DNA from: Propionibacteriaceae bacterium
GTDB lineage: Bacteria; Actinomycetota; Actinomycetes; Propionibacteriales; Propionibacteriaceae
Direction: 5' to 3'
Length of the DNA: 64,000 nt
Assembly: GCA_031271975.1 (NCBI GenBank)
Contig: JAISUR010000020.1
Location: 1 to 64,000, forward strand
The notes under the pieces are model-generated. The model did no database searches. It was not told where the DNA came from and saw only the letters and a program-made list of their open reading frames with translations. The position numbers and the translations under genes are program-made. This document shows, piece by piece, positions 26,558 to 42,756 of this stretch (the stretch's first letter is position 1; the number at the start of each line of letters is the position of its first letter).

Positions 26558-27640
26558 ATGCTCGACGATGCCCCTTCGTCGGCAAACCTGCTCGAATCCG
26601 GCGATGCCGCCCTCATTGAACCGCCGGAAGAGCCGCAGGCCGCCGCGCAAAGCGAGAGCCAGGCCGCCAAGAAGAAGCGGCGTTGGTGGATTCCGCTCTG
26701 CCTGAGCCTGTCGTTGCTGCTCGTCGCCGCGGGCTGCGTCACTGGGTGGGGCTGGTACACCCTGAATTCCGCCCTCGACAAGATCACACGCGACCCGGCA
26801 CTGGTCGTGGACCGGGCTGGATACACTCCGGCGCCCGAAACCGCACAAGGCCCGCTGAACATCGTCATCATGGGGTCGGACGCGCGCAGCGAAGACGAAG
26901 ACGGGCGCAGCGACGTGCTGTTGATCGCGCACTTCAACGCCGCCCGAGACAAGCTCTATCTGATCTCCCTTCCGCGCGACCTCTACGTCGACATCCCCAA
27001 CTTCGGGATGAACAAGATCAACGCCGCCTACGCCTTGGGCGGGTCGCCGCTGGTGATCGCCACCTTGCAAGAACTGCTGGGAATCGGCACCGACCACACG
27101 GTCGTCATCGATTTCGAAGGCTTTATCGCGGCCACCGAGGCGATCGGCGGGGTGACGTTCAACAACCGAATCGAATCCGCGTCGAAGGGCTACACCTTCC
27201 CCAAGGGGAAGATCACGCTGGAAGGCAAGGCCCTGTTGGCCTACGTGCAACAGCGAAAGGGACTGCCCGACGGCGACCTGGACCGCACCGAACGCCACCG
27301 GACGGTGTTGCGCGCGATCTTCCTCAAGATCGCCACGCCGCAGACTCTGACGAATCCGGAAGCCATGATGTCGTTGGCCAACAATGTGGGCGGATATCTG
27401 ACGGTCGACTCCCGCCTGACCAACGGCGAGATCATACGGCTCGCGTCCACCCTTCACATTGACGCGGGAGAGGACATCGTCTCGCTGCAAGCCCCCGTCG
27501 CGGCGTTCGAACGCAACGAGGCGGGAGCCGTGGACATCGTCCACGAAGAGCGCATGGCGGAACTGGCCACGGCCGTTCAAGACGACACCCTCGATGAGTA
27601 CGTGAACCGGTACGGCACGGGTACAGGACTCACACAATAG
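26558..27640 (+). CDS. LytR-CpsA-Psr (LCP) family envelope polymer ligase
   Basis: A 360-residue type II membrane protein: cytoplasmic Lys/Pro/Glu-rich leader, helix 43-66, then the LCP domain. Visible motifs are NIVIMGSDARSEDEDGRSD (family Asp/Arg residues), LISLPRDLYVDIP, MNKINAAYALGG and GDLDRTERH. LCP enzymes transfer undecaprenyl-linked glycopolymers to peptidoglycan. A -10 TATTAT (26532-26537) and GAGAGGA ribosome-binding site precede it. It opens the glycopolymer locus, so the polymer made by the following genes is probably wall-attached. Confidence 0.9.
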   Translation: MLDDAPSSANLLESGDAALIEPPEEPQAAAQSESQAAKKKRRWWIPLCLSLSLLLVAAGCVTGWGWYTLNSALDKITRDPALVVDRAGYTPAPETAQGPLNIVIMGSDARSEDEDGRSDVLLIAHFNAARDKLYLISLPRDLYVDIPNFGMNKINAAYALGGSPLVIATLQELLGIGTDHTVVIDFEGFIAATEAIGGVTFNNRIESASKGYTFPKGKITLEGKALLAYVQQRKGLPDGDLDRTERHRTVLRAIFLKIATPQTLTNPEAMMSLANNVGGYLTVDSRLTNGEIIRLASTLHIDAGEDIVSLQAPVAAFERNEAGAVDIVHEERMAELATAVQDDTLDEYVNRYGTGTGLTQ

Positions 27641-27758
27641 AGATCGGCGACCACCCAGTTTGAGTGCTATCGACCACTAAAATGGTCCATCCTTTGACAC
27701 GCGCCTATCCCAATTTGACAGGAACTTGTGCTTACAATCGCCCCAAGGAGATTCTGCA

Positions 27759-28424
27759 ATGCCCCAACAGGTCGCCGTAGTGCTGCCCCCACAGCGTCCC
27801 CCCGGCGAGGCGCTGCGGATTTTGCCGTCCCAATTCCTGGCCTTGAAACGGGTCTGCGACGTGGTGTTGTCGGCGGCGGCGCTGATCGTGCTGGCGCCAC
27901 TGCTGCTGGGGGTCGCGGTCGCCATCAAGGCCACCTCGCCCGGGCCCGTCTTCTACCGGCAAGAACGTATGGGGAAAGACGGCCGGCACTTTTGGATGTG
28001 GAAATTCCGGACGATGCGGGTAGGGGCAGACGCCGAGCTGGACAGCCTGCAGGCGGGAAACTCCCGCGCGGGAATCGGATTCAAGCTGCGCGGCGACCCG
28101 CGTGTAACCCCCGTGGGCCGTTTCTTGCGCAAGACGGCGATCGACGAACTGCCGCAACTGGTCAACATACTGGCCGGAGACATGGCGATCGTCGGGCCGC
28201 GGCCGCTGCCGATCTACGAAGCGGTGCGGTGCACGCCCGAGCAAGACGCGCGTTTGGCAGTCCGGCCCGGATTGACGTGCTTCTGGCAGGTGGTCAAAGA
28301 CGTCGATTTCGACGAGCGGATGCGGATGGACGTCAGCTATGTCCACCGGATGGGAATCCGGGTCGACGCCCTGCTGATTTGGCGGACGATCCTGTTCCTG
28401 GCGCACGGGAAGGGCGATACGTGA
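27759..28424 (+). CDS. Polyprenyl-phosphate sugar-1-phosphate transferase (initiating enzyme)
   Basis: A 221-residue bacterial sugar transferase (PF02397 type), which loads the first sugar phosphate on undecaprenyl phosphate. A single hydrophobic segment (VVLSAAALIVLAPLLLGVAV) is followed by the family core: SPGPVFYRQERMGKDG, WKFRTMRVGADA, RKTAIDELPQLVNILAGDM, VGPRPLP and VRPGLTCFWQV. There is no N-terminal multi-helix part, so it is the short form. ATG 27759 has AAGGAG nine bases upstream; an upstream GTG in frame lacks one. Sugar specificity is not readable. It is the first biosynthetic gene of a co-directional series. Confidence 0.9.
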   Translation: MPQQVAVVLPPQRPPGEALRILPSQFLALKRVCDVVLSAAALIVLAPLLLGVAVAIKATSPGPVFYRQERMGKDGRHFWMWKFRTMRVGADAELDSLQAGNSRAGIGFKLRGDPRVTPVGRFLRKTAIDELPQLVNILAGDMAIVGPRPLPIYEAVRCTPEQDARLAVRPGLTCFWQVVKDVDFDERMRMDVSYVHRMGIRVDALLIWRTILFLAHGKGDT

Positions 28425-28433
28425 GGGCCTGAC

Positions 28434-29363
28434 ATGAAGCGCATACTGGTGACTGGAGGAGCGGGATTCATCGGCTCGCATTTGTGCCAACGGCTGCTGG
28501 ACATTGGACACGACGTGCTTTGCGTCGACAACTTCTTCGCGGGCAGCCGTGACAATGTGGCCCACCTGCTGAACCATCCCCACTTCGAGATCATGCGGCA
28601 CGACGTGACCGAGCCGTTGCGCGTCGAGGTGGAGCAGATCTACAACCTGGCCTGCCCGGCCAGCCCGGTCTTCTACCAATCCGACCCGATCAAGACGACC
28701 AAGACGAACGTGCTCGGAGCCCTACATATGCTCGGCTTGGCGCGAAACTTGGGCGCGACCGTCCTGCAGGCCAGCACATCGGAAATCTACGGCGACCCCG
28801 AGGTGCATCCGCAGCCGGAGAGTTACCGGGGCCTGGTCTCGACCACGGGCTTGCGCGCCTGCTACGACGAGGGAAAACGCTGCGCGGAGACGCTCTTCTT
28901 CGACTACTGGCGGCAGCATTCGGTGGCGATCAAGGTGGTGCGGATCTTCAACACGTACGGGCCCCGGATGCGCTCCGACGACGGGCGCGTGGTGCCGTCG
29001 TTCATCACACAGGCGCTGCGCGGCGAAGACGTCACGGTGTTTGGAGACGGGTCGCAGACGCGCAGCTTCTGCTATGTCGATGACCTCGTCGCAGGCTTGA
29101 TCGCGATGATGGAATCGCCAGAGGCGTTTATCGGTCCAGTGAACATGGGCAACCCGCACGAAGTCACTGTGCGGGAACTGGCCGAGACCGTGATCCGCCT
29201 GGCCGGGAGCCATTCCCACATCGTGCACCAGCCGCTGCCCGACGACGATCCCAGGCAACGCTGCCCGGACATCACATTGGCGCGGGATCAACTGGATTGG
29301 CAGCCGACCGTCGGCTTGGAAGAGGGACTGACGCGGACCATCTCCTACTTCTCAGGCCGCTGA
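28434..29363 (+). CDS. UDP-glucuronate decarboxylase-like NAD-dependent sugar dehydratase
   Basis: A 309-residue extended [15 protein letters not shown] (7-18) binds NAD. The segment [20 protein letters not shown] and [18 protein letters not shown] followed by CYDEGKR (catalytic YxxxK) match UDP-xylose synthases (UXS) more closely than dTDP-glucose dehydratases. It would convert UDP-glucuronate to UDP-xylose, or an equivalent 4-keto sugar, for the surface polymer. It follows the initiating transferase by nine bases. Differences from typical UXS are small (SPVFYQ for [20 protein letters not shown]). Confidence 0.83.
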
Positions 29364-29364
29364 C

Positions 29365-30495
29365 ATGAACTGGCAGCCGGCTATCCGAATCGCGGGGTCG
29401 CGGCTGCTGCGCGCGGGATTGCGCGTGACGCACCTCGCCGCCTTGTCCGACAAGGTGTTTTTCGACGCTGGAGGGACCTATTCGTGCAGCCCGAAGGCCA
29501 TCTTCCAAGGCCTTGGCGAGGCCAACAGCGTGTGGTCCCTGCACCGGTGGGAGGATTGCCCGCCGGGAGCGCGGGCGGTGAAGTGGGGCTCGCCAGCGCA
29601 CTATTTGGAATTGCTGACCGCCCGCGTGATCGTGGTCAACGCCGCGCTGCGCCCGTTTCTGCCGATCCGGGCGGGGCAGACCGTGATCAACACCTGGCAC
29701 GGCGGCGGGGCGTACAAGCTCACCGGCGGGGGTCGGCGCCTGGACGCGGACATCGTCTACGCCCGGCGCGAATCGGGGCGGACGGCGCTCACCTGGTTCC
29801 TCACCTCCAGCCGGGCCTTTTCCGAAGCCGCCATGTCCGACATGCTCGTGCCGCCCGCCAAACTCCTGGCCACCGGGTTGCCCCGCAACGACGTGTTCTT
29901 CACCGACACCGCGGCCATCGCCGCGGCCACCAGGCGCAAGCTCGGCCTGGGCGACGAGGCGATCGTCCTCTACGCGCCGACTTGGCGCGACGCGAACTCT
30001 CATCCGACACTGTCGGTCCCACAACTGGTCGAAGCCCTGGAAACCCGCTTCGGCAAGCCGTTCCGCTGCCTGTACCGCGGACATCCACGAGCTTTCACGC
30101 CGCGCCCGGCCGGAGCCGCGCTGGACGTGACCGGCTATCCGGACATGCAGGAACTGCTGTGCGCCGCCGACGTCCTGGTGACGGATTACTCCTCATCCAT
30201 CTGGGACTTCTCGTTGACCGGCAAACCCTGCTTCCTGTACGCCCCCGACCTGGCGGACTACACGCTGAGCCCCGGCTTCATCCGCCCCATTGACGACTGG
30301 CGTTTCCCGCTGGCCACCAGCAACGCCGAACTGGTGGCCGCGATCCAAGCATTCGACGCCGCGGGCTTTGCCACCGCGATGGACGCGCACCACGCCGACC
30401 TGGGCAGCTATGAAACCGGCGAGGCGACCCGGGCAGTCTGCGACATCATTGCCCGCGCCTTGCACCCAGACGTCGCGCCGGTGGCAGTCTCATGA
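29365..30495 (+). CDS. CDP-glycerol/ribitol polyol-phosphate transferase (TagB/TagF type)
   Basis: A 376-residue protein with the C-terminal glyphos_transf core: NTWHGGGAYKLTGG (first conserved block with catalytic His), TGLPRNDVFF, VLYAPTWRD, FRCLYRGHP and VLVTDYSSSIWDFSLTGKP. These enzymes move glycerol- or ribitol-phosphate from the CDP carrier onto a growing chain. It begins one base after the UXS-like stop and overlaps the cytidylyltransferase gene by four bases. With that neighbour it indicates a polyol-phosphate component in the polymer. Confidence 0.88.
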   Translation: MNWQPAIRIAGSRLLRAGLRVTHLAALSDKVFFDAGGTYSCSPKAIFQGLGEANSVWSLHRWEDCPPGARAVKWGSPAHYLELLTARVIVVNAALRPFLPIRAGQTVINTWHGGGAYKLTGGGRRLDADIVYARRESGRTALTWFLTSSRAFSEAAMSDMLVPPAKLLATGLPRNDVFFTDTAAIAAATRRKLGLGDEAIVLYAPTWRDANSHPTLSVPQLVEALETRFGKPFRCLYRGHPRAFTPRPAGAALDVTGYPDMQELLCAADVLVTDYSSSIWDFSLTGKPCFLYAPDLADYTLSPGFIRPIDDWRFPLATSNAELVAAIQAFDAAGFATAMDAHHADLGSYETGEATRAVCDIIARALHPDVAPVAVS

Positions 30496-31187
30496 CCACG
30501 CTCGCCATCGTCTTCGCGGCCGGGCTGGGGACCCGGGCCAACACCGACCCCCCGAAACAGTTCGCCACCGTACGGTCCAAACCGGTGCTGGCCCACACGT
30601 TGCAGCGCCTGGACTCCCATCCTCAGATCGACGCGATTTACCTGGTCGCTCCCGCGGCGCATCTGGCCCAGGCGGCGGCGTTGGCCACTCCCAAGGTGCG
30701 CCAAGTGGTGCCCGGCGGCGATTCGGCGCACGCATCCATCATTTGCGGGCTGGAAGCGGCCCGGCCGGATGCGAGCGACGACGACATCGTGCTGTTCCAC
30801 GACGGAGTCCGGCCCGTGATCGACGCCGCGACGATCACCCGCTGTGTGGCCTCGGTACGCGATTTCGGCTCGGCCATCACATCCATACCCGCCTATGAGA
30901 CGGTCGCCGAATCCAGCGACGGCGAATGGGTCGATTCGGTCACTGTCCGCAGCCAGACGTACATCCTGCAAGCGCCGCAGGCGTTTCGTTTCGGCCACGC
31001 CTATGCGCTGAACCAGCGCGCGGTCGCCGACCAGATCGTCGGCCAAGTGGTGGACCAAGCCGAACTGAACCGCCGCTACGGGTACCGGGTACACCTGGTT
31101 CCAGGGCTGCGCGGCAACACGAAGCTCACCACCGCCTACGACCTGGAAGTGTTCGCCGCCTTGGCCGAAGCGGGGGTCTATGAGTGA
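30492..31187 (+). CDS. IspD/TarI-type cytidylyltransferase (CDP-polyol synthesis)
   Basis: A 231-residue GT-A-fold nucleotidyltransferase: CTP-binding FAAGLGTRANTDPPKQF, GGDSAHASIICGLE, FHDGVRPVID and a C-terminal QAPQAFRFG plus NTKLTTAYDLEV. Both IspD (MEP pathway) and TarI (D-ribitol-5-phosphate cytidylyltransferase) share these. The tandem TagF-like and reductase neighbours favour TarI. ATGA overlaps join it to the upstream gene, and its stop overlaps the next gene by eight bases. Confidence 0.85.
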   Translation: MTTLAIVFAAGLGTRANTDPPKQFATVRSKPVLAHTLQRLDSHPQIDAIYLVAPAAHLAQAAALATPKVRQVVPGGDSAHASIICGLEAARPDASDDDIVLFHDGVRPVIDAATITRCVASVRDFGSAITSIPAYETVAESSDGEWVDSVTVRSQTYILQAPQAFRFGHAYALNQRAVADQIVGQVVDQAELNRRYGYRVHLVPGLRGNTKLTTAYDLEVFAALAEAGVYE

Positions 31188-32124
31188 GACCTATCTGATC
31201 ACCGGAGTCTCCGGCCTGATCGGCTCCCGCCTGGCCAGCCTGTTGACGGCTGGTTCCGGGATCTCGGAAGAAGTCCGGCCCAGCCCTGCAAGGGTGGTCG
31301 GCGTGACCCGCGATCCGGAACGGGCAAGGTGCGTCGTTGGGAACGAAGTGACACTGGTGGGCGACCTGGCCGAGTGGAACGAGCCAGTGGACTACCTCAT
31401 TCACGCCGCCGCCCCCACGGCCAGCCGGTTCTTCGTTGAGCATCCCGTCGCGACGATGCAGGCCATCGTCGCCGGCACGCGGCAAGCGTTGGAATGGGCC
31501 CGGGAGCATCCGGTCAAAGCACTGGCGTGCCTGTCCAGCCTGGAGGTCTACGGGGTTCCGACCCAGCCGGGCAAGCTCGCCGAAGCGGACTTGGGCTACC
31601 TCGACCCCCGCGACGTGCGCAGCAGCTATCCGCAGGCCAAACGGCTCGCCGAGACGATGTGCGCCGCCTATGCGCGCGAATTCAAAGTGCCCGCCCGTAT
31701 CGTGCGTTTGTCCTGTGTGGTGGGGCCGCCGGTCGACGAGGCAGACGTGCGCTTCACCGCGCAAGTAGTGCGGGCCATGCGTAGCGGCGCGGCGGTCGCG
31801 TTGGCCACACCGGGCAGATCGGCGCGCTCCCACATCGGGTTGGATGACGCCGTTGCCGCCATCGTGGCCGTGTTGCGATGTGGCGCCGACGGCGAGGCCT
31901 ACAACGCGGCCAACGAAGCGGCATTCTGCTCGATCCGGGAGTTCGCGGAAACGGCGGCTGCGCTGGTCGGGGCCCAGGTGGCTGAGCCAGGCCCCGGTTC
32001 AGGCAGCGGCGAATACCTGTCTGAGCGGGCCGTCGAATTGGATACCGGAAAGCTACGGGCATTGGGGTGGGCGCCGACGCAGTCGTTGGAGCAAATGCTG
32101 CGGAGCGCCGCTAGCTTGGTCTGA
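31180..32124 (+). CDS. NAD(P)-dependent epimerase/reductase partner of the cytidylyltransferase
   Basis: A 314-residue extended SDR: TGVSGLIGSRLASLL, LIHAAAPTASRFF, LSSLEVYGVP and catalytic SSYPQAKR (YxxxK). It overlaps the cytidylyltransferase by eight bases, an arrangement recalling fused or paired CDP-ribitol-forming systems such as Bcs1, in which an SDR reduces ribulose-5-phosphate. However, the motifs are those of a sugar epimerase/dehydratase. Either it makes the polyol phosphate or it modifies another sugar. No TarJ-type medium-chain dehydrogenase is present in the locus. Confidence 0.75.
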   Translation: MSETYLITGVSGLIGSRLASLLTAGSGISEEVRPSPARVVGVTRDPERARCVVGNEVTLVGDLAEWNEPVDYLIHAAAPTASRFFVEHPVATMQAIVAGTRQALEWAREHPVKALACLSSLEVYGVPTQPGKLAEADLGYLDPRDVRSSYPQAKRLAETMCAAYAREFKVPARIVRLSCVVGPPVDEADVRFTAQVVRAMRSGAAVALATPGRSARSHIGLDDAVAAIVAVLRCGADGEAYNAANEAAFCSIREFAETAAALVGAQVAEPGPGSGSGEYLSERAVELDTGKLRALGWAPTQSLEQMLRSAASLV

Positions 32125-32159
32125 GAGTGGCTGGTGGCTAGACGGAGAGCTGCGCGTTC

Positions 32160-33128
32160 TCAATCGGCGAATTGCCGCAAGAACTCCGCTATGGCCGCGG
32201 AAGGAAGCCGGATGCTGGTCGGGAACTGCGAATTGACCAGGGTTTCCAGGGCCGCCACGTCGCCGCGGCGCACGCAGGGCACGCCGTGGGTGGCCTGCAG
32301 GCCGAGGGCCCGTCCGTCTATGTCCAGGGCGATGGAGCGCACCGCGTGTTGCAGGGCATATGCGGCCCCGTGCAAGCGCGTGCCTATGTAGTCGACGCCG
32401 CCTTCGCTGAGCACTTGCGACAGGGCTGGCAGCGAGTAAATCCGCTGTCCGCCCGGGCCGGCCAAGCTCGTCCAGTAGGCGTCGTCCCCGACGGTGCCTT
32501 GGCACCAGAAGATGACCTCCGCGTAGTTGCGTTTGGCAAGGTCGGCCAAGGCGCGGTCGGCCGCCACATCGCGCTGTTTGCGGTGGGACGACAGCGAGAC
32601 CACCACGCGGTCTGCTTTGCCCTGCGGGATGGCGGCGCACACTCGGTCGCTGACTCCCCAAAGCGACGGGCATCCAGTGACGAGCGCGCGAAACCCCAGG
32701 GATTCCAGCAACTCCCGAGTGCGTTCGTCCCGCACGGAATGGGCCACGCCGCTGGTCAGCGCGCTGCGATACAGCCAGGCGGTGTACGGATCGGGGCGCC
32801 CGCCGACCCGGCCCGCGCCCACCAAGATGCTGCCGCGATACAGCCGCAGGTTGGGCGGGCCGAGCTGCCACCACGGCGCCCAGGTGAGCGCGTGCGGTAC
32901 CAGGCACGCCGTCCCGCCGATGAATTTGAGGTCGGCGGCGTCGGCAAAGCGCCGCTTCGAGCCGTAGACCGATTGCCGCCAGGTGAGATTTTGCAGATGA
33001 GTGGCGAAACGCAGCACGCAGGACTGCTCCAATACGGGGGCCAGCCCGCGCTCCACACCTTGCATCACGATCAAGTCGCCCAAGTTTCCCGAGCCGACAG
33101 CGGTGTCGAACAGGACCACTTGTCTCAC
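32160..33128 (-). CDS. Polysaccharide pyruvyl transferase family protein
   Basis: A 322-residue protein of the pyruvyl transferase family (PF04230; CsaB, WcaK, GumL relatives), which adds pyruvate ketals from PEP to surface glycans. The start VRQVVLFDTAVGSGNLGDL carries the nucleotide-like GNLGD motif; YIGTRLHGAAYALQ is the family C-terminal block. I chose GTG 33128 because TAGAGT lies seven bases upstream (leaderless) and the family begins here; ATG 33158 is an alternative. It is the only minus-strand gene in the locus and is divergent from the GT2 array. Confidence 0.82.
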   Translation of the reverse strand: MRQVVLFDTAVGSGNLGDLIVMQGVERGLAPVLEQSCVLRFATHLQNLTWRQSVYGSKRRFADAADLKFIGGTACLVPHALTWAPWWQLGPPNLRLYRGSILVGAGRVGGRPDPYTAWLYRSALTSGVAHSVRDERTRELLESLGFRALVTGCPSLWGVSDRVCAAIPQGKADRVVVSLSSHRKQRDVAADRALADLAKRNYAEVIFWCQGTVGDDAYWTSLAGPGGQRIYSLPALSQVLSEGGVDYIGTRLHGAAYALQHAVRSIALDIDGRALGLQATHGVPCVRRGDVAALETLVNSQFPTSIRLPSAAIAEFLRQFAD

Positions 33129-33198
33129 GCCGAAAACTCTACCCGTATCAGCTACCATGAGGTATCGCCCCGGATGCCTCACGGGACTGGAGGATGAG

Positions 33199-34125
33199 TT
33201 GCCCAAGCTGCCTGCCTATCCGGTTTTCTCGCTGATCATTCCCGTGCACGACTCGGCGGACTTCGCAGGCAGGCTTTTCGACTCCATCCCGGTCCGCGAC
33301 GACCTTGAGGTGATCGTGATCGACGACCGGAGCACACTCGAGCAGGCCAAGGACACCCGTGCGGCATTGGAGGCACGCGGTTTCCCTCACCGCCAATGGC
33401 TGCCCAACCAGCAGCGGCCCGGCCCGGGCGGGGCGCGCAACACCGGCTTGGACCACGCGCGGGGCCGTTGGATCGTCTTCGCGGACAGCGACGACTACTT
33501 CACGGCCGCTTTCCCGGCCGCCCTGGACACCTACGCGGATGCCCCCTGCGACATGGTCCTGTTCCGGCCGGGCACCGCGCCCAACCCGGCAGGCAGGTCT
33601 CGCACCGCAGACCAGGAGAGGATCTTCGATGCGGGCGATGTCAACGTGGTCGGCTTCAACACCAACACGGTCTGGGGCCGATTCGCGCGCCGAGACTTGA
33701 TTGAGCGGGGCTGCCTGCGCTTCCACGAGACGATGGTCAGCGAGGACGTTGCGTTCGCCGTGAGCTGTTTCGCGAACGCGCGAACACCGGTGCTGGACGC
33801 CGCGGTCATCTATCTGAAGACGATCCGGGAAGGGTCGTTGATGGAACACCCCTACACGATGGCGGAGCAGTTGACACAGGCGTCAGCCATGGTCGAAAAG
33901 GCAGCCATCCAACGCCGGGCGGCGCCGCGCGACATCCTGCCGACAGTGGTTCCACCGGGACGTTGGCTGCTTGCCCGCGCTTGGCGCACCCACGGCTGGC
34001 GCGGCCTGTCCCGAATGGCCCCGCGCGTGATCGGCCGCGGCCTGTACCTCAGCCGCGAAAAGAACCTGACCCGGGTGCGGCTGGCTCTGGGCATCCGGCG
34101 CGTCTGGGAACGGGGCCGCGCGTGA
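33199..34125 (+). CDS. GT2 glycosyltransferase, first of four tandem paralogues
   Basis: A 308-residue GT-A enzyme: FSLIIPVHDSADFAGRLFDS, VIVIDDRSTLEQA, GPGGARNTGLDHARG and metal-binding VFADSDDYF (DxD). Then comes an acceptor part with SEDVAFAVSCFA and a C-terminal basic helical tail. TTG 33199 is the probable start: GGAGG lies six bases upstream and residue order matches the paralogues; an in-frame ATG at 33157 has no such site. A plus-strand -10, TACCAT (33153-33158), would give a short leader. Its GTGA junction couples it to the next GT2. Confidence 0.84.
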   Translation: MPKLPAYPVFSLIIPVHDSADFAGRLFDSIPVRDDLEVIVIDDRSTLEQAKDTRAALEARGFPHRQWLPNQQRPGPGGARNTGLDHARGRWIVFADSDDYFTAAFPAALDTYADAPCDMVLFRPGTAPNPAGRSRTADQERIFDAGDVNVVGFNTNTVWGRFARRDLIERGCLRFHETMVSEDVAFAVSCFANARTPVLDAAVIYLKTIREGSLMEHPYTMAEQLTQASAMVEKAAIQRRAAPRDILPTVVPPGRWLLARAWRTHGWRGLSRMAPRVIGRGLYLSREKNLTRVRLALGIRRVWERGRA

Positions 34126-35072
34126 TCAACTACTCCATCATCATCGGCGCCTATAACGAGGCGGATTGGATCGGCCCGCTGCTGGATTCGATTCCGCGCC
34201 GCGACGACGTCGAGGTGCTGTTGGTCGACGACCATTCCGACCCGGAACAGACGGCGGCCATGCGGCGGCGGCTAGCGGAACGGCGCTTCCCATACGCCAG
34301 CTACTTGGCCAATACCGGGAAGCAAGGCCTGGGCACCACCCGCAACGTCGGCATTGCGGCGGCGCAAGGCAAATGGCTGGTTTTCGCCGACGCGGACGAC
34401 AGTTTCACCCCCGCCTTCGCGGCGGCTCTGGACAGGTACGCCGAGTCGTCGGCCGACCAGGTGCTGTTTCTGCCCCAGACGGCTCCGAACCCATGGGGGG
34501 CGTCGCGAACCTTGGCTTCGGAACGCCTCTTCGAGGCTGGTGACGCCGCCGTGGCCGGCTACCGGATCGCTTCGGCCGCTTCCCGCTTCGTCAAACGCGA
34601 ACTGGTGGAACGTCGCGGCATCCGCTTTTCGGAGGTCCCCATCGGAGAGGACACCATGTTCTCCGTGCAGGTGATGGTCAATGCCACCGACGTCCGGCTG
34701 GACCACACCCCCATCTACACGATTGCGATCCGGGAGGGGTCGCTTTATCACCGGCGCCGCACGATGCCGCAGTTGCTGGCAACCGTCGACCTGCAACTCG
34801 CCAAGGCTCGCTATCTGCGCGAACACGTGTTCGACCGGGCTCTGTTGCGAAAAGCGCTGCCCAGCAAAGGCCGGCACCTGCGGATGGGGCTGGTGTGGCA
34901 CGGTCCCGGGGGGCTGTTCCGGGTGTGGCTGCGCTATCTGGGCCACGGCCTCCCGCTATCCAAGCAGAACCCCGGCGAGACCCTGCGGAACATCGTCGAA
35001 ACGCTGCGCCTGGCTGTAGTTGAGCGTGACGGCTACCTCCCGCTCCAAGTACCGCGGAAGACCGCCCCATGA
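34122..35072 (+). CDS. GT2 glycosyltransferase, second paralogue
   Basis: A 316-residue homologue of its neighbours: NYSIIIGAYNEADWIGPLLD, VLLVDDHSDPEQT, GLGTTRNVGIAAAQG, VFADADDSF and VPIGEDTMF. The GTG start at 34122 overlaps the stop of the first copy. GTTRNVG replaces the GARNTG of the other three copies and the DxD reads DADD, so this copy may differ in donor or linkage. The C-terminal region is longer and basic. A four-base ATGA overlap leads into the third copy. Confidence 0.85.
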   Translation: MINYSIIIGAYNEADWIGPLLDSIPRRDDVEVLLVDDHSDPEQTAAMRRRLAERRFPYASYLANTGKQGLGTTRNVGIAAAQGKWLVFADADDSFTPAFAAALDRYAESSADQVLFLPQTAPNPWGASRTLASERLFEAGDAAVAGYRIASAASRFVKRELVERRGIRFSEVPIGEDTMFSVQVMVNATDVRLDHTPIYTIAIREGSLYHRRRTMPQLLATVDLQLAKARYLREHVFDRALLRKALPSKGRHLRMGLVWHGPGGLFRVWLRYLGHGLPLSKQNPGETLRNIVETLRLAVVERDGYLPLQVPRKTAP

Positions 35073-35998
35073 CTACCACGACGCCCGCCTACTCCATCAT
35101 CGTTCCCGTCCACAACTCGTCCGCGCACATCGCGCCCCTGCTGGATTCCATCCCGCGCCGCGACGACGTGGAGGTCATCTTGGTCGATGACCGCAGCACC
35201 CCCGAAGAGGCAGCCGAAACCTGGGCACTGGCTCAGAGTCGGGCGTTTCCCCACCTGGTGACTTTGACCAACGTGCGCACACCGGGGCCCGGCGGGGCTC
35301 GCAATACGGCGTTGGAGGCGGCCCGGGGCCGCTGGATCGTGTTCGCGGATTCCGATGATGCCTTCACGGACCAGTTCGGCCCGGCCCTGGACCGCTACGC
35401 GGCAGCTGACACCGACCTCGTCGTGTTCCGCCCCAAGACCACCCCCGGGGGAGTCCGCACCACTGCGATGGAGGTGCTCTTCGATGCCGGGGACTTGGAC
35501 ATCTACACCGCGCGGCACCAAGAACTGTGGGCGCGGTTCGTCCGGCGCGAGTTGATCGCGCTCCATGGCCTGCGGTTGAACGAGGACTGCTTGGTCATGG
35601 ACGACGTGCTGTTCTCGTTGGATGCGGTGAAGTGGGCACGCTCCGCCGTCCAGGACGCGAACGCCATCTACCAGGTGTCCGAGCGAGTCGGTTCGCTCAC
35701 TGCCCGACTGCTCAGCGTGGAAGAGTTACTTCAGATCGCGCGGGTCCGGGTCGCCCAGGCCGCGTTTCTGCGCGATTGGCTGCCCGCGGACAGACTGCCC
35801 GAAGCCCTGCCCACCTGCGGCCAGTTGCTGTTGAAGTCGCTCGTGTGGCACGGCCCGAAAGCCGTGGCGGCGATCGCCAAAGAACTGCGCGGACATCAGG
35901 TGCCGTTGACACGCCACGCGAATCCGCTCACTTGGCTGGGCAAGGCGGCGAAGGTCGTCCGAACGGCTCCGGCGGTACGCCGCGGGGGGAGTCGGTGA
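35069..35998 (+). CDS. GT2 glycosyltransferase, third paralogue
   Basis: A 309-residue enzyme: YSIIVPVHNSSAHIAPLLDS, VILVDDRSTPEEA, GPGGARNTALEAARG, VFADSDDAF and LNEDCLVMDDVLF. Same architecture and length as the flanking copies, with the LLLKSLVWHGPKAV tail block. Coupled to both neighbours by overlapping start and stop codons (ATGA upstream, TGATG downstream). Confidence 0.85.
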   Translation: MTTTTPAYSIIVPVHNSSAHIAPLLDSIPRRDDVEVILVDDRSTPEEAAETWALAQSRAFPHLVTLTNVRTPGPGGARNTALEAARGRWIVFADSDDAFTDQFGPALDRYAAADTDLVVFRPKTTPGGVRTTAMEVLFDAGDLDIYTARHQELWARFVRRELIALHGLRLNEDCLVMDDVLFSLDAVKWARSAVQDANAIYQVSERVGSLTARLLSVEELLQIARVRVAQAAFLRDWLPADRLPEALPTCGQLLLKSLVWHGPKAVAAIAKELRGHQVPLTRHANPLTWLGKAAKVVRTAPAVRRGGSR

Positions 35999-36933
35999 TG
36001 GAACAGTTGGCATATTCGCTGATCATCCCGGTGCACAACTCGGCCGGCTATGTGAACACGTTGTTCGAGTCAATTCCGCACCGCGCCGACCTTGAAGTGA
36101 TCGTGGTGGACGACCGCAGTGAGCCAGAACAAGCTGCCCGGACCCGCGAATTGCTCGACGCGCAGGCTTTCCCACACTCCCGTTTCTTGCAGAATCTGCG
36201 CGGGCCCGGAGCCGGGGGAGCCCGCAATACCGGCATGGATCACGCCCGCGGCAGGTGGCTGGTGTTCGCCGACAGTGACGACAGCTTCACCGCCGAGTTC
36301 GACGCCGCCTTGACCCGCTGGGCCGACACGGCCTGCGACATTGTCCTGTTCCGGCCGTATGCCGCCGCCGACCAAGCCAGCCAAGACGCGATTACTTACT
36401 TGCTTCCGGTATTCGACTCGGGGGACGCCTTCGCCTACGGTTTGCTTTCCCACCATGTCTTGTGGCGGTTTGTGAGGCGCGACTTAGTGGAGTTGGGCGC
36501 CATCCGGTGTACGGAAAGCAGCGTTGGAAACGACACCTGGTTCGCCTTGAGCGCAGTTTCCGCCGCAACTACTTTGCGTCAGGACCCGACGCCGATCTAC
36601 CGGCACCAGATCCGCAAAGGCTCGCTGACTCAACACGCGCATTCCTTCGGCGAGTTGGCGGCAAGGGCCGACATCCAAGTGGCGGCGGCAAAGCTGATTC
36701 GCCATGCCGCACCGAAAGAGCTCTGGCGGGTGGCCCTTCCCACAAAGGACTGGCTTCTCGTGCGGGCGTTGGCGTGGTGCGGGCCACTGGGCTATCTGCG
36801 GCTGGCGGCGCGGCTGGCCGGCCACGGCCTCCCCTATTCGCGTGCCGCCCGGAACCCGATCCTGCTGGCTTGGAACACGCTGCGCCGAGCCGCGATCGTG
36901 GCCAGACGCACCGGGTGGAGCGGCCATGGCTGA
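35998..36933 (+). CDS. GT2 glycosyltransferase, fourth paralogue
   Basis: A 311-residue enzyme: MEQLAYSLIIPVHNSAGYVN, VIVVDDRSEPEQA, GPGAGGARNTGMDHARG, VFADSDDSF and VGNDTWFALSA. It starts at ATG 35998 within TGATG. Very similar to the first copy over the nucleotide-binding part, so the array probably arose by repeated gene duplication. The Wzy-like gene starts inside its 3' end (8-base overlap). Confidence 0.85.
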   Translation: MEQLAYSLIIPVHNSAGYVNTLFESIPHRADLEVIVVDDRSEPEQAARTRELLDAQAFPHSRFLQNLRGPGAGGARNTGMDHARGRWLVFADSDDSFTAEFDAALTRWADTACDIVLFRPYAAADQASQDAITYLLPVFDSGDAFAYGLLSHHVLWRFVRRDLVELGAIRCTESSVGNDTWFALSAVSAATTLRQDPTPIYRHQIRKGSLTQHAHSFGELAARADIQVAAAKLIRHAAPKELWRVALPTKDWLLVRALAWCGPLGYLRLAARLAGHGLPYSRAARNPILLAWNTLRRAAIVARRTGWSGHG

Positions 36934-38155
36934 ATCGACGCTCGTCCAAGCCCAGCCCACTCTCGCGCGATGGACTCCAGAAACGCTGCTGGTGGCAGCC
37001 TTCTGGCTGTACTTGACGCTGCCATCCATGGTCGGCTGCCTGGCGTATGGATCCCGGGTGGATCCGAGCTTGTCCGGAAGCCACCTGCCGGTAAGCGGGC
37101 CTTTGGTGGCCATCTTCGAGTGGCTGACATTGGGACTGCTGTTGGCCGCCTGCCTGCTGGCCATCTTGCGCCCCGCGGGGACGCGGCAGCGGGTCAACCC
37201 CGGAGCGTGGGTTGCCGTAGGCACTCCGGTCTTCGCGGTGGTTGTGGCCACAATCCAAGGGCGCGGCGCGCCACTGTCGCAAGCCGTGATCCTGGTGCTG
37301 GCCGTTGCTTGCGTCTTCTTGAATCCGACCCGCCAACTCCTGCGGGCGGTCGGAGTTTCAGTGGTCACCACGGCAGCGGTCTCGCTCCTGATGGGATTCC
37401 AAGGGTCCGGGATGGTGTCTGGTTGGAACTCGGAAACCAAACCCATCCTGTTCGGAAACGTGTTGGCGGGGCCATTCCCTTTCGGCAACAGCTTGGGCAT
37501 GGCTTTGGCCCTCGGCGTTCCGTTGGTGCTGGTGTTGCGGCGGCGCTGGCTGCGCTGGACCGGCCTGGCCGCCGTCGCGCTGGCGATCACATGGTCTGCT
37601 TCCCGCACCGCGATGATTGCCGCCGCGGCGGGGCTGCTGGCTTACGCCCTGGCCCGGCGAGTCCCCATGTCCTGGAAGACGATGACCTTCTGGTGCGGCG
37701 CGGTCTTCGCCGCCGCGGCCACGGTCCCTTTCCTGGGCTGGTCGCCGGAGACGTTCTCCAACCGGGGCAGCATCTGGCGCAGATCGGTGCAAGCTCTGCA
37801 GGACTTTTGGTTTCTCGGGATGCCCGCCGGGGCATCGCCTGTGCCGGGCGAAGTCGGGCACGGGCAATGGTCCTTGGTGCCGCACAGCACTTTTCTGGCG
37901 GCGGTGGCCGACGGCGGCATCGTGCAGGCACTCCTGGTCGTGGTGTTGTTCCTTTGCAGCGTCGCGGCTTTCACGCGCACCGACTATCCCGCGGTTGGCT
38001 TCGCAGTGGGAATGGCGATGGCCGTCAACTCGACGACTGAGAACATCCTTCCCTTCCCGCCGGCGATGAAGACCGGCACCGTGGTCTTGCTGCTGCTGAT
38101 CATGGCGGCCAGTTGGCATCCGCATCCGCACCGGCAGCCAGAGGATGCCACCTGA
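36926..38155 (+). CDS. O-antigen ligase/polymerase-like membrane protein (Wzy_C type)
   Basis: A 409-residue polytopic protein with ten or more hydrophobic segments. A large extracytoplasmic loop between residues ~250 and 330 includes WSPETFSNRGSIWRRSVQAL and VGHGQWSLVPHSTFLAAVAD, resembling the Wzy_C/WaaL catalytic loop (essential His/Arg residues). The family joins or ligates lipid-linked oligosaccharide repeat units. GGTGGAG precedes ATG 36926. It is followed by the flippase gene with a TGATG overlap, as expected for a Wzx/Wzy-type export route. Confidence 0.78.
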   Translation: MAESTLVQAQPTLARWTPETLLVAAFWLYLTLPSMVGCLAYGSRVDPSLSGSHLPVSGPLVAIFEWLTLGLLLAACLLAILRPAGTRQRVNPGAWVAVGTPVFAVVVATIQGRGAPLSQAVILVLAVACVFLNPTRQLLRAVGVSVVTTAAVSLLMGFQGSGMVSGWNSETKPILFGNVLAGPFPFGNSLGMALALGVPLVLVLRRRWLRWTGLAAVALAITWSASRTAMIAAAAGLLAYALARRVPMSWKTMTFWCGAVFAAAATVPFLGWSPETFSNRGSIWRRSVQALQDFWFLGMPAGASPVPGEVGHGQWSLVPHSTFLAAVADGGIVQALLVVVLFLCSVAAFTRTDYPAVGFAVGMAMAVNSTTENILPFPPAMKTGTVVLLLLIMAASWHPHPHRQPEDAT

Positions 38156-39603
38156 TGCGCGAGTTGTTCTTGCGGGGGTTCTTGCATACGGCCGTGGGCA
38201 AGTACTCACGGTTCGCAATCACCTTGCTCGTCGCCGCCATTTTGTCCCGCCTGCTGACGCCAATGGACTACGGCACGGTTGCGCTGGTCAGTGTGATCGC
38301 CGCGTTCGCCGACGTGTTGGTGGATGCCGGGCTGGGACCGGCGGTCATCCAGAACAAGACCCTCGACGCGGACGACAACACGGCCATCTTCTGGTTCTCC
38401 GCCGCGCTTTCCGCGGTTGTCGCCCTGGTGTTCGGGGCGTGCGGCTGGCTGCTGGAGCTCTTCTATGGTGGAGCCGTCTATCGCGAGGTCACCTGGCTGC
38501 TCGCCGGGTCCGTATTCACGTATGGGCTGTCGATCGTGCCACGGGCGCTGCTGACGAAGGAGAAGAACTTCCGGGACGTCAACCTCATCTTGGTGGCGGG
38601 CTCGTTTGCGGGCGGTGCCGTCGGCGTGACCACTGCGCTGCTTGGAGTGGGCGTCTTCGCGCTTCCGCTGCAGTCGATCACCAGCGGCTTGGTCTCGCTG
38701 GGGCTCTATTTCGCCCGCTCGCCGCTGCGGGTGCGACGGCTTTGGTCGCTGGGCGCCGTGCGGAAGGTGTGGGGCTTCGCAAGCTGGCAATGGGCTTTCT
38801 CGCTGGTGAACTACTTCACGCGGAATCTGGATTCGCTGCTTGTTGGCAAGCTCTTGGGGCCCACCGCGTTGGGGCACTACAACAAGTCCTACAACCTGAT
38901 GATGCAGCCAAATCAACTGCTGATGGGGGTGATCCTCCCGGTCATGCACCCAATCCTGTCCGACTACCAGAACGACGTCGCAACGGTGCGCCGCGCCTTT
39001 CTGCGGATCGTCCGCGTGCTGGGGTTGGTCGGCCTGCCGCTGTCTGTGTTCTGCGCGCTCAGCTCTCGGGAGATCATTTTCAGCCTCTACGGCGACCAAT
39101 GGGGAGACGCCGTTTTCCCCTTCTCCGTGCTGGCTTGGTCGATCTGGGCGCAGATGACGCTGTCCCCGGCCGGGGCGGTCTACATGGCGCGCGGCCGGAC
39201 CAGGGCGTTCTTCCTGGTCGGCTTGGGGTCGGGAGCGTTCATCATCGCGATGTTGTGCGTCGGCTTGGCCTGGGGCGGAATCGACCAGGTGGCGATTGCG
39301 CTGACAATCGCTTTTACCGCGCAGTGGCCGGTGCTGTACGCCGTCATGGCCCACCTCGTGCTCGAATCCACCTTGCGCGAAATAGTGCGGCAGTTGTGCC
39401 GGCCGGCGCTCGTGGCACTGATATCCGCCATGCCGCTGCTGGCCCTGAACTGGTTGCTGCCCGACTGGAACGTCTTCGCCTGCCTGGGGATCAAATTGGC
39501 CACCTGGGGATTGTTCTACCTGGCTGGCGCGGTTTTGCTGCGGGAGCATCGGGTGATCCTCGATCTGCTGCGCAAACCTGGCCCGGATAGGATTGCGCCA
39601 TGA
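38155..39603 (+). CDS. Wzx-type lipid-linked oligosaccharide flippase (MOP family)
   Basis: A 482-residue protein with about 12-14 membrane segments of the polysaccharide-biosynthesis MOP exporter family (teichuronic acid exporter-like). LTPMDYGTVALVSVIAAFAD and VLVDAGLGPAVIQ near the N-terminus and ALGHYNKSYNLMMQP in the middle are family-like. It would flip undecaprenyl-linked repeat units across the membrane before polymerisation. Overlaps its upstream neighbour by one base (TGATG) and the methyltransferase by four. Confidence 0.87.
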   Translation: MRELFLRGFLHTAVGKYSRFAITLLVAAILSRLLTPMDYGTVALVSVIAAFADVLVDAGLGPAVIQNKTLDADDNTAIFWFSAALSAVVALVFGACGWLLELFYGGAVYREVTWLLAGSVFTYGLSIVPRALLTKEKNFRDVNLILVAGSFAGGAVGVTTALLGVGVFALPLQSITSGLVSLGLYFARSPLRVRRLWSLGAVRKVWGFASWQWAFSLVNYFTRNLDSLLVGKLLGPTALGHYNKSYNLMMQPNQLLMGVILPVMHPILSDYQNDVATVRRAFLRIVRVLGLVGLPLSVFCALSSREIIFSLYGDQWGDAVFPFSVLAWSIWAQMTLSPAGAVYMARGRTRAFFLVGLGSGAFIIAMLCVGLAWGGIDQVAIALTIAFTAQWPVLYAVMAHLVLESTLREIVRQLCRPALVALISAMPLLALNWLLPDWNVFACLGIKLATWGLFYLAGAVLLREHRVILDLLRKPGPDRIAP

Positions 39604-40445
39604 CTGCCCCACACCGCGTCAAGCAGGCGTTGCCGGGGTTGGCAAGAGCCCTAGCCAAAGCCCGGAAGACCAGCCGCGCGGCGAAAGTGAAACTCTGGGT
39701 GGCCAGCGACCCGCTGGTGCGCAAGTTCCGCGCCGCAGCTCAGGGCCGCCAGGATCTGGTGCACTGCCCGGTTTGCGACTCCACCTTCCGCCGTTTTGCC
39801 CCCGCTGGCGATCCCGTCCGCGGCCAGGCGCAATGCTGGAATTGCGGCGCGCGGGAACGCCACCGGCTGCTGTGGCGCTACCTGCAGGACCGCACCGACC
39901 TGTTCGACTCGTGCCCCAAACGCGTGCTGCACCTCGCTCCCGAACAGGCTCTGGCCCGGCGTCTCGGCGACAAGGTGGCCCTCGATTACGTTACCGGCGA
40001 CTTGTGCCCCGAGAATCCGTCCTACGCCGGCCTGAACGCCTTGCGCGTCGACGTCACCAAGATGCCTTTCGACGATGGCTCGTTCGACGTGATCCTGTGC
40101 AACCACCTGCTGGAGCATGTGCCCGACGACGCGACCGCGATGCGCGAGCTGTTCCGGGTGTTGCGGCCGGGCGGTTGGGCGATCCTGCAAGTGCCGATCG
40201 ACTACGCCAATCCGGCGACGATCGAAGACCCGTCGGTCACTGACCCCGCCCAACGTGACCTGGTCTTCGGACAGCGCGACCATGTGCGTTGGTACGGTCG
40301 CGACTACCCGGATCGGCTGCGGGCGGCCGGATTCGACGTCACCGAGGATGACTATGCCCGCAACTTGCCGCCCGAGTTGCTGCGCCTGGAGCGGCTGCCG
40401 CGCTCTGAGTTGATCTACTTCTGTGCCAAGCCGAGGCAGCAGTGA
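39600..40445 (+). CDS. Class I SAM methyltransferase with N-terminal zinc ribbon
   Basis: A 281-residue protein. Residues ~57-80 hold paired cysteines (VHCPVCDSTF and CWNCGARERH), a zinc-ribbon-like module. The following Rossmann part has VLHLAPEQALARRL (motif I region, with APE in place of a GxGxG), DVTKMPFDDGSFDVILCNHL and LRPGGWAILQVP. In capsule loci such enzymes usually O-methylate sugars or polyol phosphates. The lack of a classical glycine-rich motif I is typical of this subfamily but makes activity less certain. Substrate unknown. Confidence 0.8.
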   Translation: MTAPHRVKQALPGLARALAKARKTSRAAKVKLWVASDPLVRKFRAAAQGRQDLVHCPVCDSTFRRFAPAGDPVRGQAQCWNCGARERHRLLWRYLQDRTDLFDSCPKRVLHLAPEQALARRLGDKVALDYVTGDLCPENPSYAGLNALRVDVTKMPFDDGSFDVILCNHLLEHVPDDATAMRELFRVLRPGGWAILQVPIDYANPATIEDPSVTDPAQRDLVFGQRDHVRWYGRDYPDRLRAAGFDVTEDDYARNLPPELLRLERLPRSELIYFCAKPRQQ

Positions 40446-41290
40446 ACCGCTTGCGACGTTGGACGTCGCGGGCGCGCAACGCGTGGCGCTACGCGCGGTT
40501 GGCTGTTTGGAACCGCATTTCGTGGCGCTCGGTGCTGGGCGACGGCCCGGTGGTGTCGCTCACGACCTATGGCCCGCGGCGGCGCACGGCCTATCGCGCA
40601 ATCGAATCCATCGGCCTGGGCATGCTGCGCCCGAGCCGCTTGGTGCTGGTGCTGACCGAGGCGGACGCGTCCGAAATTCCACCGAGCTTGCGCCGGCTGG
40701 AGCGGCGCGGCTTGGAGATCCTGCGGGTGCCGGAAGACTTGGGCCCGCACAAGAAGTACTACCCGCTCGTCACCGCCGATCCGCCGCCACCTGCCGTGGT
40801 CACCGCCGACGACGACATCTATTACGAACGCAGTTGGCTGGCCCTGCTGGCCCGCGCCGCCCAGGACAACCCGGACATCGTGCACTGCCACCGAGCGTGG
40901 TTCATCGGTCTCGACGAAGACGGCATGACTGCGTACATCACTTGGCAACCGGCTCCTGGCGGTGTGGCCAGCCATCGGCTCCTCATCACCGGCGGGGCTG
41001 GCGCCCTATATACCCAGGCGGCGATAACGGCATTGCGGGAAGCGGGCGACGGCTTCAAACTGGTGGCGCCGCGCACCGACGACATCTGGATCAGCCACAC
41101 GCTCTTCCGGGCCGGCATCCGGGCCGCGCGGCTGCGTACGCCTTTCCGCCACGTGCCGCTGCAGGCCAGCCGCTTGGATCCGGCCGCGCTTGCGCGCGAG
41201 AACCGCCTCGGGGGCGGCAACGACCGCACGTTGGCGGCTCTGTACACGCCCGCCGACATCGCGGCCTTGCGGACCGAGCCTGACATATAG
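40442..41290 (+). CDS. Putative GT-A-like glycosyltransferase
   Basis: A 282-residue protein: VVSLTTYGPRRRTAYRAIES at the N-terminus, LGPHKKYYPLV in the middle, then VVTADDDIYYERSW with a DDD metal-binding motif, and ITGGAGALYTQ. The overall pattern fits a small GT-A glycosyltransferase family common in surface-polysaccharide loci, distinct from the four GT2 copies. It overlaps the methyltransferase gene by four bases and is the last gene before a short promoter-containing gap. Donor and acceptor unknown. Confidence 0.7.
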   Translation: MNRLRRWTSRARNAWRYARLAVWNRISWRSVLGDGPVVSLTTYGPRRRTAYRAIESIGLGMLRPSRLVLVLTEADASEIPPSLRRLERRGLEILRVPEDLGPHKKYYPLVTADPPPPAVVTADDDIYYERSWLALLARAAQDNPDIVHCHRAWFIGLDEDGMTAYITWQPAPGGVASHRLLITGGAGALYTQAAITALREAGDGFKLVAPRTDDIWISHTLFRAGIRAARLRTPFRHVPLQASRLDPAALARENRLGGGNDRTLAALYTPADIAALRTEPDI

Positions 41291-41350
41291 CCTGGCGACC
41301 GGGATGACGTGGTTGGGGGGTGCTGCGTCCAATTCGGTGCCGCGTACCGT

Positions 41351-41356
41351 TAGAGT
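41351..41356 (+). promoter_or_regulatory. Putative -10 element of the BY-kinase gene
   Basis: TAGAGT 30 bases before the GTG start at 41386; transcription would begin near 41363, leaving room for the GGCGGAG ribosome-binding site. This suggests the chain-length kinase has its own promoter apart from the biosynthetic operon. Confidence 0.4.
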
Positions 41357-41385
41357 AGCTGTAACGGCAAACAGGCGGAGTAGCT

Positions 41386-42750
41386 GTGGAAATCATCGAT
41401 TACCTTCGGGCGGTGCGGCGTTTCTGGCTGAGTTGCCTCATCACAGTGGCGGCCGCCGTCGGGGTCGGAGTCCTGCTGCTGGCCGTGCTTCCCAAGAGTT
41501 TCACCGCCGAGACCCGCGTCTTCTTGACCGTGGTGGTCGGCAATTCGGGCTCTGACTTGGCTTCGGGCACGAACTACGCGCAAAACCAAGTGGACTCGTT
41601 CGCCGAGGTGGCGGTCTCGCCGTTGGTGTTGGATCCGGCGATTTCCAAGCTTGGTCTGCAGACCACCGCCGACGAGTTGGCCTCGCACATCGGCGTGCAG
41701 GTGCGAGACGGGACCTCTGTGATGGTGCTGTCCGCGACTGACGCCAAGGCGGAGTTGGCAGCCGACATCGCCAACGCGGTGAGCGATGCACTCGTCGCCG
41801 CCGTCGACCAACTCTCACCCGTGTCCTCGGACGATGAGAAGCTGGTTTGGGCCACTGTCATCACTCGCGCCACGGTGCCACAATCCACCTCGTTTCCACC
41901 CACGCGCAACACGTTGCTGCTCGCCGCTCTGGCAGGCGTGTTGTTGGCCCTGATCCAGGCGGTCATCCGCCATCGGCGCAACAGGCACATAGTCGCCGAC
42001 GAAGATGTGGCGAAAGTCACCGACGTGCCGGTCGTCGCACACATCGGCGAGGACGAGGAACTGTCCCGTCCGGGCGCTGACAAGCTGGCGCTCGCCGCGC
42101 ACACCGGAGAGGACTACCGCCGCCTGCGCACCAACGTTTCCTTCCTCGGCTCCCACGACGGGGCGGGCAAGGCCTTCGTGGTCACTTCGGCTGTGCCGTC
42201 GGAGGGCAAGACCACCGTCTCGCTGAACTTGGCACGGGTGCTCGCCCAAGCCGGCGAGCGGGTGCTCTTGGTGGACGCCGATCTGCGGAATCCGACCATC
42301 GGGTCGCTGCTGGATCTGCACGGCTCGGTGGGTCTGACTGACGTCTTGGTGGGCCGCGCCCAATCCGGCTCGGCCTTGGTGGATACCGGCATTGCGGGGC
42401 TACATGCTGTCTTGGCCGGAGAGATCCCCCCAAACCCCTCAGAGTTGCTCGCCTCGCCGCGGATGCGCGAGTTCTTGGCGGAAGCCACCTCGCGTTTTTC
42501 GTACGTCATCATCGACTCCCCGCCGCTGCTGCCGGTCACCGATGCCGCCGTCATAGCCCACGAAGCGGACGGAGCACTCATGGTGACAAGCACCCAAGGC
42601 ACCACCATGCCGCAACTGGCCGAGGCCCTGGAAGCCCTGCGAATAGCCAACGGCGCAGCCCTCGGCATCGTGTTGAACAAGCTGCGCCGCGACCCCAAGC
42701 GCTACGGCCGCTACGGCTACGGCTATTACCACGGCCACGCGAAGACGTAG
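41386..42750 (+). CDS. Chain-length determinant / tyrosine autokinase (Wzz-Wzc type)
   Basis: A 454-residue fusion. The Wzz part has a membrane helix (FWLSCLITVAAAVGVGVLLL, ~13-33), an extracytoplasmic region and a second helix (~180-197). The cytoplasmic BY-kinase has Walker A in SAVPSEGKTTVSLNLA (~266-281), Walker A' VLLVDADLRNPTIG and Walker B-like VIIDSPPLLP. The end is a tyrosine cluster (YGRYGYGYYHGHAKT), the usual autophosphorylated tail. These proteins control polymer length and export through phosphorylation cycles. GTG start with GGCGGAG. It closes the locus; no separate phosphatase gene is seen. Confidence 0.9.
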   Translation: MEIIDYLRAVRRFWLSCLITVAAAVGVGVLLLAVLPKSFTAETRVFLTVVVGNSGSDLASGTNYAQNQVDSFAEVAVSPLVLDPAISKLGLQTTADELASHIGVQVRDGTSVMVLSATDAKAELAADIANAVSDALVAAVDQLSPVSSDDEKLVWATVITRATVPQSTSFPPTRNTLLLAALAGVLLALIQAVIRHRRNRHIVADEDVAKVTDVPVVAHIGEDEELSRPGADKLALAAHTGEDYRRLRTNVSFLGSHDGAGKAFVVTSAVPSEGKTTVSLNLARVLAQAGERVLLVDADLRNPTIGSLLDLHGSVGLTDVLVGRAQSGSALVDTGIAGLHAVLAGEIPPNPSELLASPRMREFLAEATSRFSYVIIDSPPLLPVTDAAVIAHEADGALMVTSTQGTTMPQLAEALEALRIANGAALGIVLNKLRRDPKRYGRYGYGYYHGHAKT

Positions 42751-42756
42751 CCTTCC

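Follow-up and report, generated by a model that had tools for sequence, protein, structure and literature searches.

Four tandem, long-diverged GT2 glycosyltransferase genes in a probable surface-glycan locus of a Propionibacteriaceae bacterium

The DNA analysed here (the window) comprises the first 64 kb of a contig 98 kb long (JAISUR010000020.1) of a Propionibacteriaceae bacterium (assembly GCA_031271975.1; whole genome 2.70 Mb). Between positions 33199 and 36933 it contains four consecutive genes for related glycosyltransferases of family GT2, referred to below as copies 1 to 4. The initial annotation had described four tandem related enzymes of about 310 residues; this was borne out, since the products have 308, 316, 309 and 311 aa and each scores above the curated cut-off of PF00535 (23.3 bits):

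33199..34125, plus strand: GT2 copy 1; 308 aa; PF00535, 65.7 bits; start TTG; GGARNTG, DSDD, ED
34122..35072, plus strand: GT2 copy 2; 316 aa; PF00535, 75.7 bits; GTG start within the GTGA junction; GTTRNVG, DADD, ED
35069..35998, plus strand: GT2 copy 3; 309 aa; PF00535, 74.0 bits; ATG start within the ATGA junction; GGARNTA, DSDD, DD
35998..36933, plus strand: GT2 copy 4; 311 aa; PF00535, 69.3 bits; ATG start within the TGATG junction; GGARNTG, DSDD, ND

The TTG at 33199 from which copy 1 is read is preceded by GGAGGATGAG; an in-frame ATG upstream (33157) is an alternative, as is a GTG at 35995 for copy 4. Direct reading of the DNA placed the junctions GTGA, ATGA and TGATG at 34122–34125, 35069–35072 and 35996–36000, as the initial annotation had claimed, and revealed a further one that it lacked, an 8 bp overlap of copy 4 with the following wzy-like gene (ATG at 36926). 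Such coupling is typical of the whole cluster and nothing special to the GT2 genes: within the cluster (27759–42750), 9 of 12 neighbouring genes on the same strand overlap, versus 10 of 26 outside it, and ATGA or GTGA overlaps recur between the genes starting at 29365 and 30492, 38155 and 39600, and 39600 and 40442. Outside the four GT2 genes the boundaries are those of a simple gene caller, on which these junction counts depend. Scans for promoters and terminators over 32000–43000 gave no enrichment over shuffled sequence.

When the genome was searched with a profile of the four copies, a fifth full-length copy was found on another contig (L082:10148–11074, minus strand). The 10 pairs that these five sequences form are 41–48% identical, with BLASTP E values of 1e-66 to 1e-83, which excludes a chance likeness. 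The fifth copy is 45% identical to copy 1, and copies 2–4 are 41–46% identical to it. At fourfold-degenerate sites the copies differ at a proportion of 0.54–0.64, the figure for random sites of the same composition being 0.63, and the longest DNA word common to any two copies is 17 nt. These sites are saturated, and the duplication is old; the proposal that it was recent is also contradicted by the amino acid identities, the short shared words and the equally close copy elsewhere in the genome. Judged from their sequences, the four genes are long-diverged paralogues that arose by old duplications. Gene conversion among them was considered, and is ruled out by the saturated fourfold sites and by shared words of no more than 17 nt.

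The fifth copy belongs to a second glycan locus, which also holds genes for an initiating sugar-phosphate transferase (PGT), a GT26 (WecG) type enzyme, two GT4-like enzymes, a Wzy-type protein and a bacterial tyrosine kinase (BY-kinase) 52% identical to that of the window. In this second locus NTP_transferase+HAD, SIS and GHMP-kinase genes follow one another (L082:4044–7782; G000:C13, minus strand), a row that we take to resemble a nucleotide-heptose pathway, and a short pyruvyl-transferase-like gene lies at L082 13548–14258.

The copies had been described as sharing two sequence blocks. SIP-RDD-EV-VDD and FADSDD were indeed found, but copy 3 reads GGARNTA and copy 4 SIPHRADLEV. Copy 2 had been set apart by its GTTRNVG and DADD; both readings were confirmed, but not its standing as the odd one, as both states are the commonest in the subfamily. 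Among 55 subfamily rows (a set leaving out six loci below 115 bits and two broken or cut members of less than 250 aa in L073 and L074), the DxDD motif reads DADD in 40, DSDD in 12 and DCDD in 3, and the residue after RN is V in 29, I in 12, L in 5, T in 4, E in 4 and K in 1. It is thus copies 1, 3 and 4 that are unusual, the rare state being the T after RN that they carry.

The residues D42, D43, D96 and D98 are present in 55/55 rows, and the DD and DxDD motifs are intact in all five copies of this genome. The column of D183 has an aspartate in 53/55 rows, including all five copies, and aligns with D178 of TarS (counted from the PDB sequence-search alignment), which we take to be the catalytic base; the residue preceding it varies, copies 1 to 5 reading ED, ED, DD, ND and ND. 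The possibility that one copy is inactive was examined and rejected on these grounds: the GT2 motif residues are complete in every copy, with no motif loss in any of the four.

Relatives are rare among related genomes. In wide searches, in which the 5 to 11 top candidates of each genome were scored in overlapping family, order, class and phylum sets, a profile of the five copies gave matches at E≤1e-25 in 2 of 198 same-family genomes (the genome under study and G209, of another genus), and at E≤1e-30 in 2/391 genomes of the order, 1/394 of the class and 2/396 of the phylum, the genome under study being included each time. A first search for relatives had given a match at 1e-10 in 43 of 60 genomes, where the best foreign score was 81.5 bits versus 321–541 for the five copies themselves. 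Genome G209 has two copies, which flank a wzx-like gene near a wzy gene 32% identical to that of the window; they sit in DNA of 46–48% G+C on a contig mostly above 60%. The G209 glycan locus (G209:C73:67509–81000; L102:7509–20000 plus L103:1–2000) has ∼46–56% G+C in most 2-kb steps versus 60–70% around it, and looks acquired on this composition; short, broken-looking open reading frames lie between its wzy and GT2 genes. A scan of a named collection yielded 43 loci, mainly from Bacteroidota, with some from Fibrobacter, Lachnospiraceae and Treponema; it used two peptide patterns, so that it is enriched for SIPxRxDxE members and may miss near relatives of the genome under study. A member above 115 bits is present in 37 of these 43 loci, generic GT2 genes scoring below 80 bits.

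The seven actinobacterial sequences (the five copies and the two of G209) form one clade, supported at 100/99, in both a 60-row and a 19-row tree, so that their descent from a single ancestor is well supported. This clade stands apart from every other row. Inside it the grouping is less firm. In the 60-row tree copies 1–4 group at 88/72 and copies 1, 3 and 4 at 98/87; the latter group has 91/96 in the 19-row tree, for which approximately unbiased (AU) tests gave p = 0.47 for a clade of copies 1–4 and 0.39 for one of copies 1–5, and weakly rejected copies 3 and 5 together (0.04). The phylogeny suggested as a check of the duplication therefore upheld the common clade but not, with any firmness, the separate grouping of the four, and a strictly tandem birth of the four copies is only likely.

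Alternatively, each copy might have been imported from a different source by its own horizontal transfer, the copies then being gathered in one operon. This would suit a subfamily whose other members came chiefly from Bacteroidota, Fibrobacter and Lachnospiraceae and which was absent at E≤1e-25 from 196/198 family genomes, as it would the position of the G209 relatives within lower-G+C DNA. We nevertheless regard it as unlikely, given the single clade of the seven sequences, standing apart from every other row, and a branching order within it that the AU tests left unsettled.

The remaining genes of the locus in which the four copies lie are as follows:

26558..27640, plus strand: LytR-CpsA-Psr (LCP) protein, likely glycan-to-wall ligase; PF03816, 122.5 bits
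27759..28424, plus strand: initiating sugar-phosphate transferase (PGT); PF02397, 205.6 bits on 27726–28421
28434..29363, plus strand: short-chain dehydrogenase/reductase (SDR) of UDP-glucuronate decarboxylase (UDP-xylose synthase) type; 381 bits to a 4gll chain (UDP-glucuronic acid decarboxylase 1)
29365..30495, plus strand: TagF-like polyol-phosphate transferase; PF04464, 167.8 bits
30492..31187, plus strand: IspD/TarI-like cytidylyltransferase; PF01128, 143 bits; best PDB match a ribitol-5-phosphate cytidylyltransferase
31180..32124, plus strand: SDR, probable CDP-hexitol-forming reductase; best PDB match 8v4g/8v4h, 135 bits versus 73 for the next
32160..33206, minus strand: polysaccharide pyruvyl transferase, divergent from copy 1; PF04230, 48.3 bits; start alternatives 33158 and 33119
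36926..38155, plus strand: Wzy-like polymerase; PF04932, 24.5 bits, below the cut-off of 31.7; 32% identical to the wzy-like gene of G209
38155..39603, plus strand: Wzx-like flippase; PF13440, 243.9 bits on 38158–39600
39600..40445, plus strand: methyltransferase; PF08241, 60.6 bits
40442..41290, plus strand: unassigned protein, perhaps another glycosyltransferase; DDD motif seen by eye; PF13439 and PF00535 matches below cut-off; GTGA overlap with the cluster
41386..42750, plus strand: putative chain-length regulator of Wzz/BY-kinase type; PF13614, 42.7 bits (cut-off 27); PF02706, 21.9 bits, below the cut-off of 25.5

This is an ordinary surface-polysaccharide cluster of a familiar kind, and its content suggests that 26558–42750 is probably a Wzx/Wzy-type glycan cluster whose product is anchored to the wall. 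The adjacent PF01128 and PF01370 genes (30492 and 31180) are distinct from the genome's ispD, the stronger IspD match lying on contig C16 (176 bits versus 143 for the cytidylyltransferase of the locus); to judge from their matches they are a probable pair of CDP-hexitol synthesis type. The solved structure nearest to the cytidylyltransferase is that of a ribitol-5-phosphate enzyme, so that the polyol may also be ribitol. Searches of Pfam, NCBIfam, PHROGs and PDB sequences with the product of 40442–41290 returned nothing above the cut-offs, and its single-sequence model (predicted local distance difference test score, pLDDT, 37) was too poor for a structure search. The pyruvyl transferase gene is the only one of the cluster on the minus strand; an ATG at which it may start (33158) overlaps, on the opposite strand, the upstream ATG (33157) that could serve copy 1. 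Elsewhere in the window (10946–11642, minus strand), a PIN-domain gene overlaps a small upstream gene, which has no Pfam match, in a VapBC-like toxin-antitoxin layout.

With gene content, homology, intact motifs and age of divergence established for the locus, we consider it probable that the four GT2 genes encode the committed cytoplasmic glycosyltransferases of this one Wzx/Wzy-type glycan locus, as old duplicates that add one sugar each. The PGT would start the unit by loading a sugar phosphate onto the lipid carrier, and each of the four GT2 enzymes, which share one actinobacterial ancestor, would then extend it by one sugar taken from a nucleotide-sugar donor. A phosphate derived from the CDP-hexitol made by the 30492/31180 pair may be attached by the TagF-like enzyme, and pyruvyl and methyl groups would decorate the unit, which Wzx would flip and Wzy polymerise before the LCP protein attached the glycan to the wall. 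It is probably this array that determines how the sugars of the repeat unit are linked, and we infer that the unit contains a hexitol phosphate and is wall-attached. G209, the sole other family genome with full-length relatives, supports this reading in that it has them beside wzx and near a homologous wzy. The step of one linkage per enzyme follows the general rule, given in the available text of PMC3628348, of one glycosyltransferase (Gtr) per internal linkage; the same text has 2–4 gtr genes for 3–6 sugars, and a pentasaccharide built by four Gtr enzymes and one initiating transferase. On this basis a repeat unit of some five or more sugars, close to the minimum of five given in the initial annotation, is a plausible expectation.

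Several points weigh against this assignment. The Wzy match falls below the Pfam cut-off (24.5 versus 31.7 bits), the tandem clade of copies 1–4 is weakly supported, and any glycosyltransferase can be bifunctional or silent. In addition, a test for a conserved donor half and a diverged acceptor half had the opposite outcome, the ratio of donor to acceptor identity being 1.34 for the 10 pairs of this genome versus 2.02 for 401 pairs drawn from different loci at a similar overall identity, pairs that are not independent of each other.

Copy 1, the only copy modelled, gave an AlphaFold2 model with a pLDDT of 92.3 from 23 aligned sequences, from which a GT-A fold is predicted with confidence. Its best full-length structural matches were TarS (Z 24.4 over 288 residues), TarP (23.1), RmlT (22.1) and GalT1/CgT (21.4); these scores lie so close together that they indicate the kind of enzyme and not its acceptor. 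The PDB sequence search returned no close member of the SIPxRxDxE subfamily, the best match being TarS at 102 bits. As the three best fold matches are wall teichoic acid glycosyltransferases, and the locus encodes a CDP-polyol pair along with a TagF-like transferase, the acceptor of one or more copies might be a polyol phosphate, as it is for TarS, TarP and RmlT, instead of a sugar in the lipid-linked unit. This seems improbable: sequence identity to those enzymes is 13–21%, GalT1, whose substrate is a protein-linked glycan, follows close behind at Z 21.4, fold likeness is uninformative on acceptors, and many members of the subfamily occur in Bacteroidota, for which we know of no teichoic acid.

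A mosaic origin, with donor and acceptor halves shuffled between the paralogues, is hinted at by half-wise identities, the donor half of copy 1 being closest to copy 4 (0.66) and its acceptor half to copies 5 and 2 (0.50 and 0.48), and the lowest of 30 permutation p-values was 0.0045; but significance is lost over 30 tests, and separate trees of the two halves agree on copies 1 and 4 followed by copy 3, with weak support, which makes such shuffling very unlikely. Least credible of all is a recent tandem duplication within the strain leaving near-redundant copies, which would fit the head-to-tail adjacency and the clustering of copies 1, 3 and 4 in both trees but not the identities of 41–48%, the fourfold saturation, the 17 nt limit on common words or an equally close copy at another locus.

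Within the preferred reading of four old duplicates serving one glycan, a more far-reaching history can be drawn, which we hold to be doubtful: one imported GT2 ancestor would have been amplified in place into a four-step array, its daughters taking successive linkages of a single hexitol-phosphate repeat unit and a fifth daughter being relocated to the second glycan locus, so that a lineage otherwise without the subfamily extended its glycan through duplications of its own transferase. Should the copies prove to be enzymes of successive steps with a common ancestor, they would offer a compact natural set for finding the residues that govern the choice of donor and acceptor in GT2 enzymes, rules for which are generally lacking when glycans are predicted from genomes. 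For now the main value of the analysis lies in correcting the readings of a recent duplication and an odd copy 2, and its evolutionary interest is modest.

Compared with known systems, the copies share with solved GT2 enzymes (TarS 5tze, TarP 6h1j, RmlT 8bz4, GalT1 5hea and the B. fragilis enzyme 3bcv) the GT-A fold, the DD and DxD motifs, an aspartate at the catalytic position and a C-terminal helical part, but differ from TarS, TarP and RmlT in sequence, as noted above. A literature search for tandem paralogous GT2 arrays found no paper on the arrangement, the search being shallow and no proof of absence. Adjacent copies of the same subfamily do occur in 8 of the 37 collected loci with a member above 115 bits (L039, L041, L047, L051, L055, L060, L061 and L062, from Bacteroidota and Lachnospiraceae), and three more loci have two non-adjacent copies. 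The adjacent copies are 47–68% identical within a locus; these arrays differ from that of the window in belonging to other phyla and in having two or three adjacent copies (three at most, in L051) against four.

The neighbouring PF01128 and PF01370 genes recall the CDP-6-D-glucitol and CDP-mannitol pathways (HS5.18/HS5.17 of C. jejuni HS:5; Mnp1/Mnp2 of S. pneumoniae 35A). The best PDB matches of the window SDR, 8v4g and 8v4h, are codes that occur in the HS5.17 paper, on the CDP-6-D-glucitol synthase of C. jejuni HS:5 (PMC10918830), the available text of which also notes Mnp1/Mnp2 for CDP-mannitol, lists Brevibacterium cell walls among those with mannitol phosphate and predicts CDP-hexitol pairs in >200 organisms. 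The likeness of the window SDR to 8v4g/8v4h amounts to 135 bits only, at which glucitol, mannitol and ribitol are indistinguishable from sequence. As a whole, the locus resembles the Wzx/Wzy capsule (K) loci of A. baumannii in clustering a PGT, several Gtr enzymes, Wzx, a candidate Wzy, decorating transferases and a putative chain-length kinase, as far as these are set out in the available text of PMC3628348; it differs from them in that its four Gtr enzymes are paralogues of one subfamily, and in an LCP gene and a TagF-like enzyme that suggest wall attachment and a phosphopolymer.

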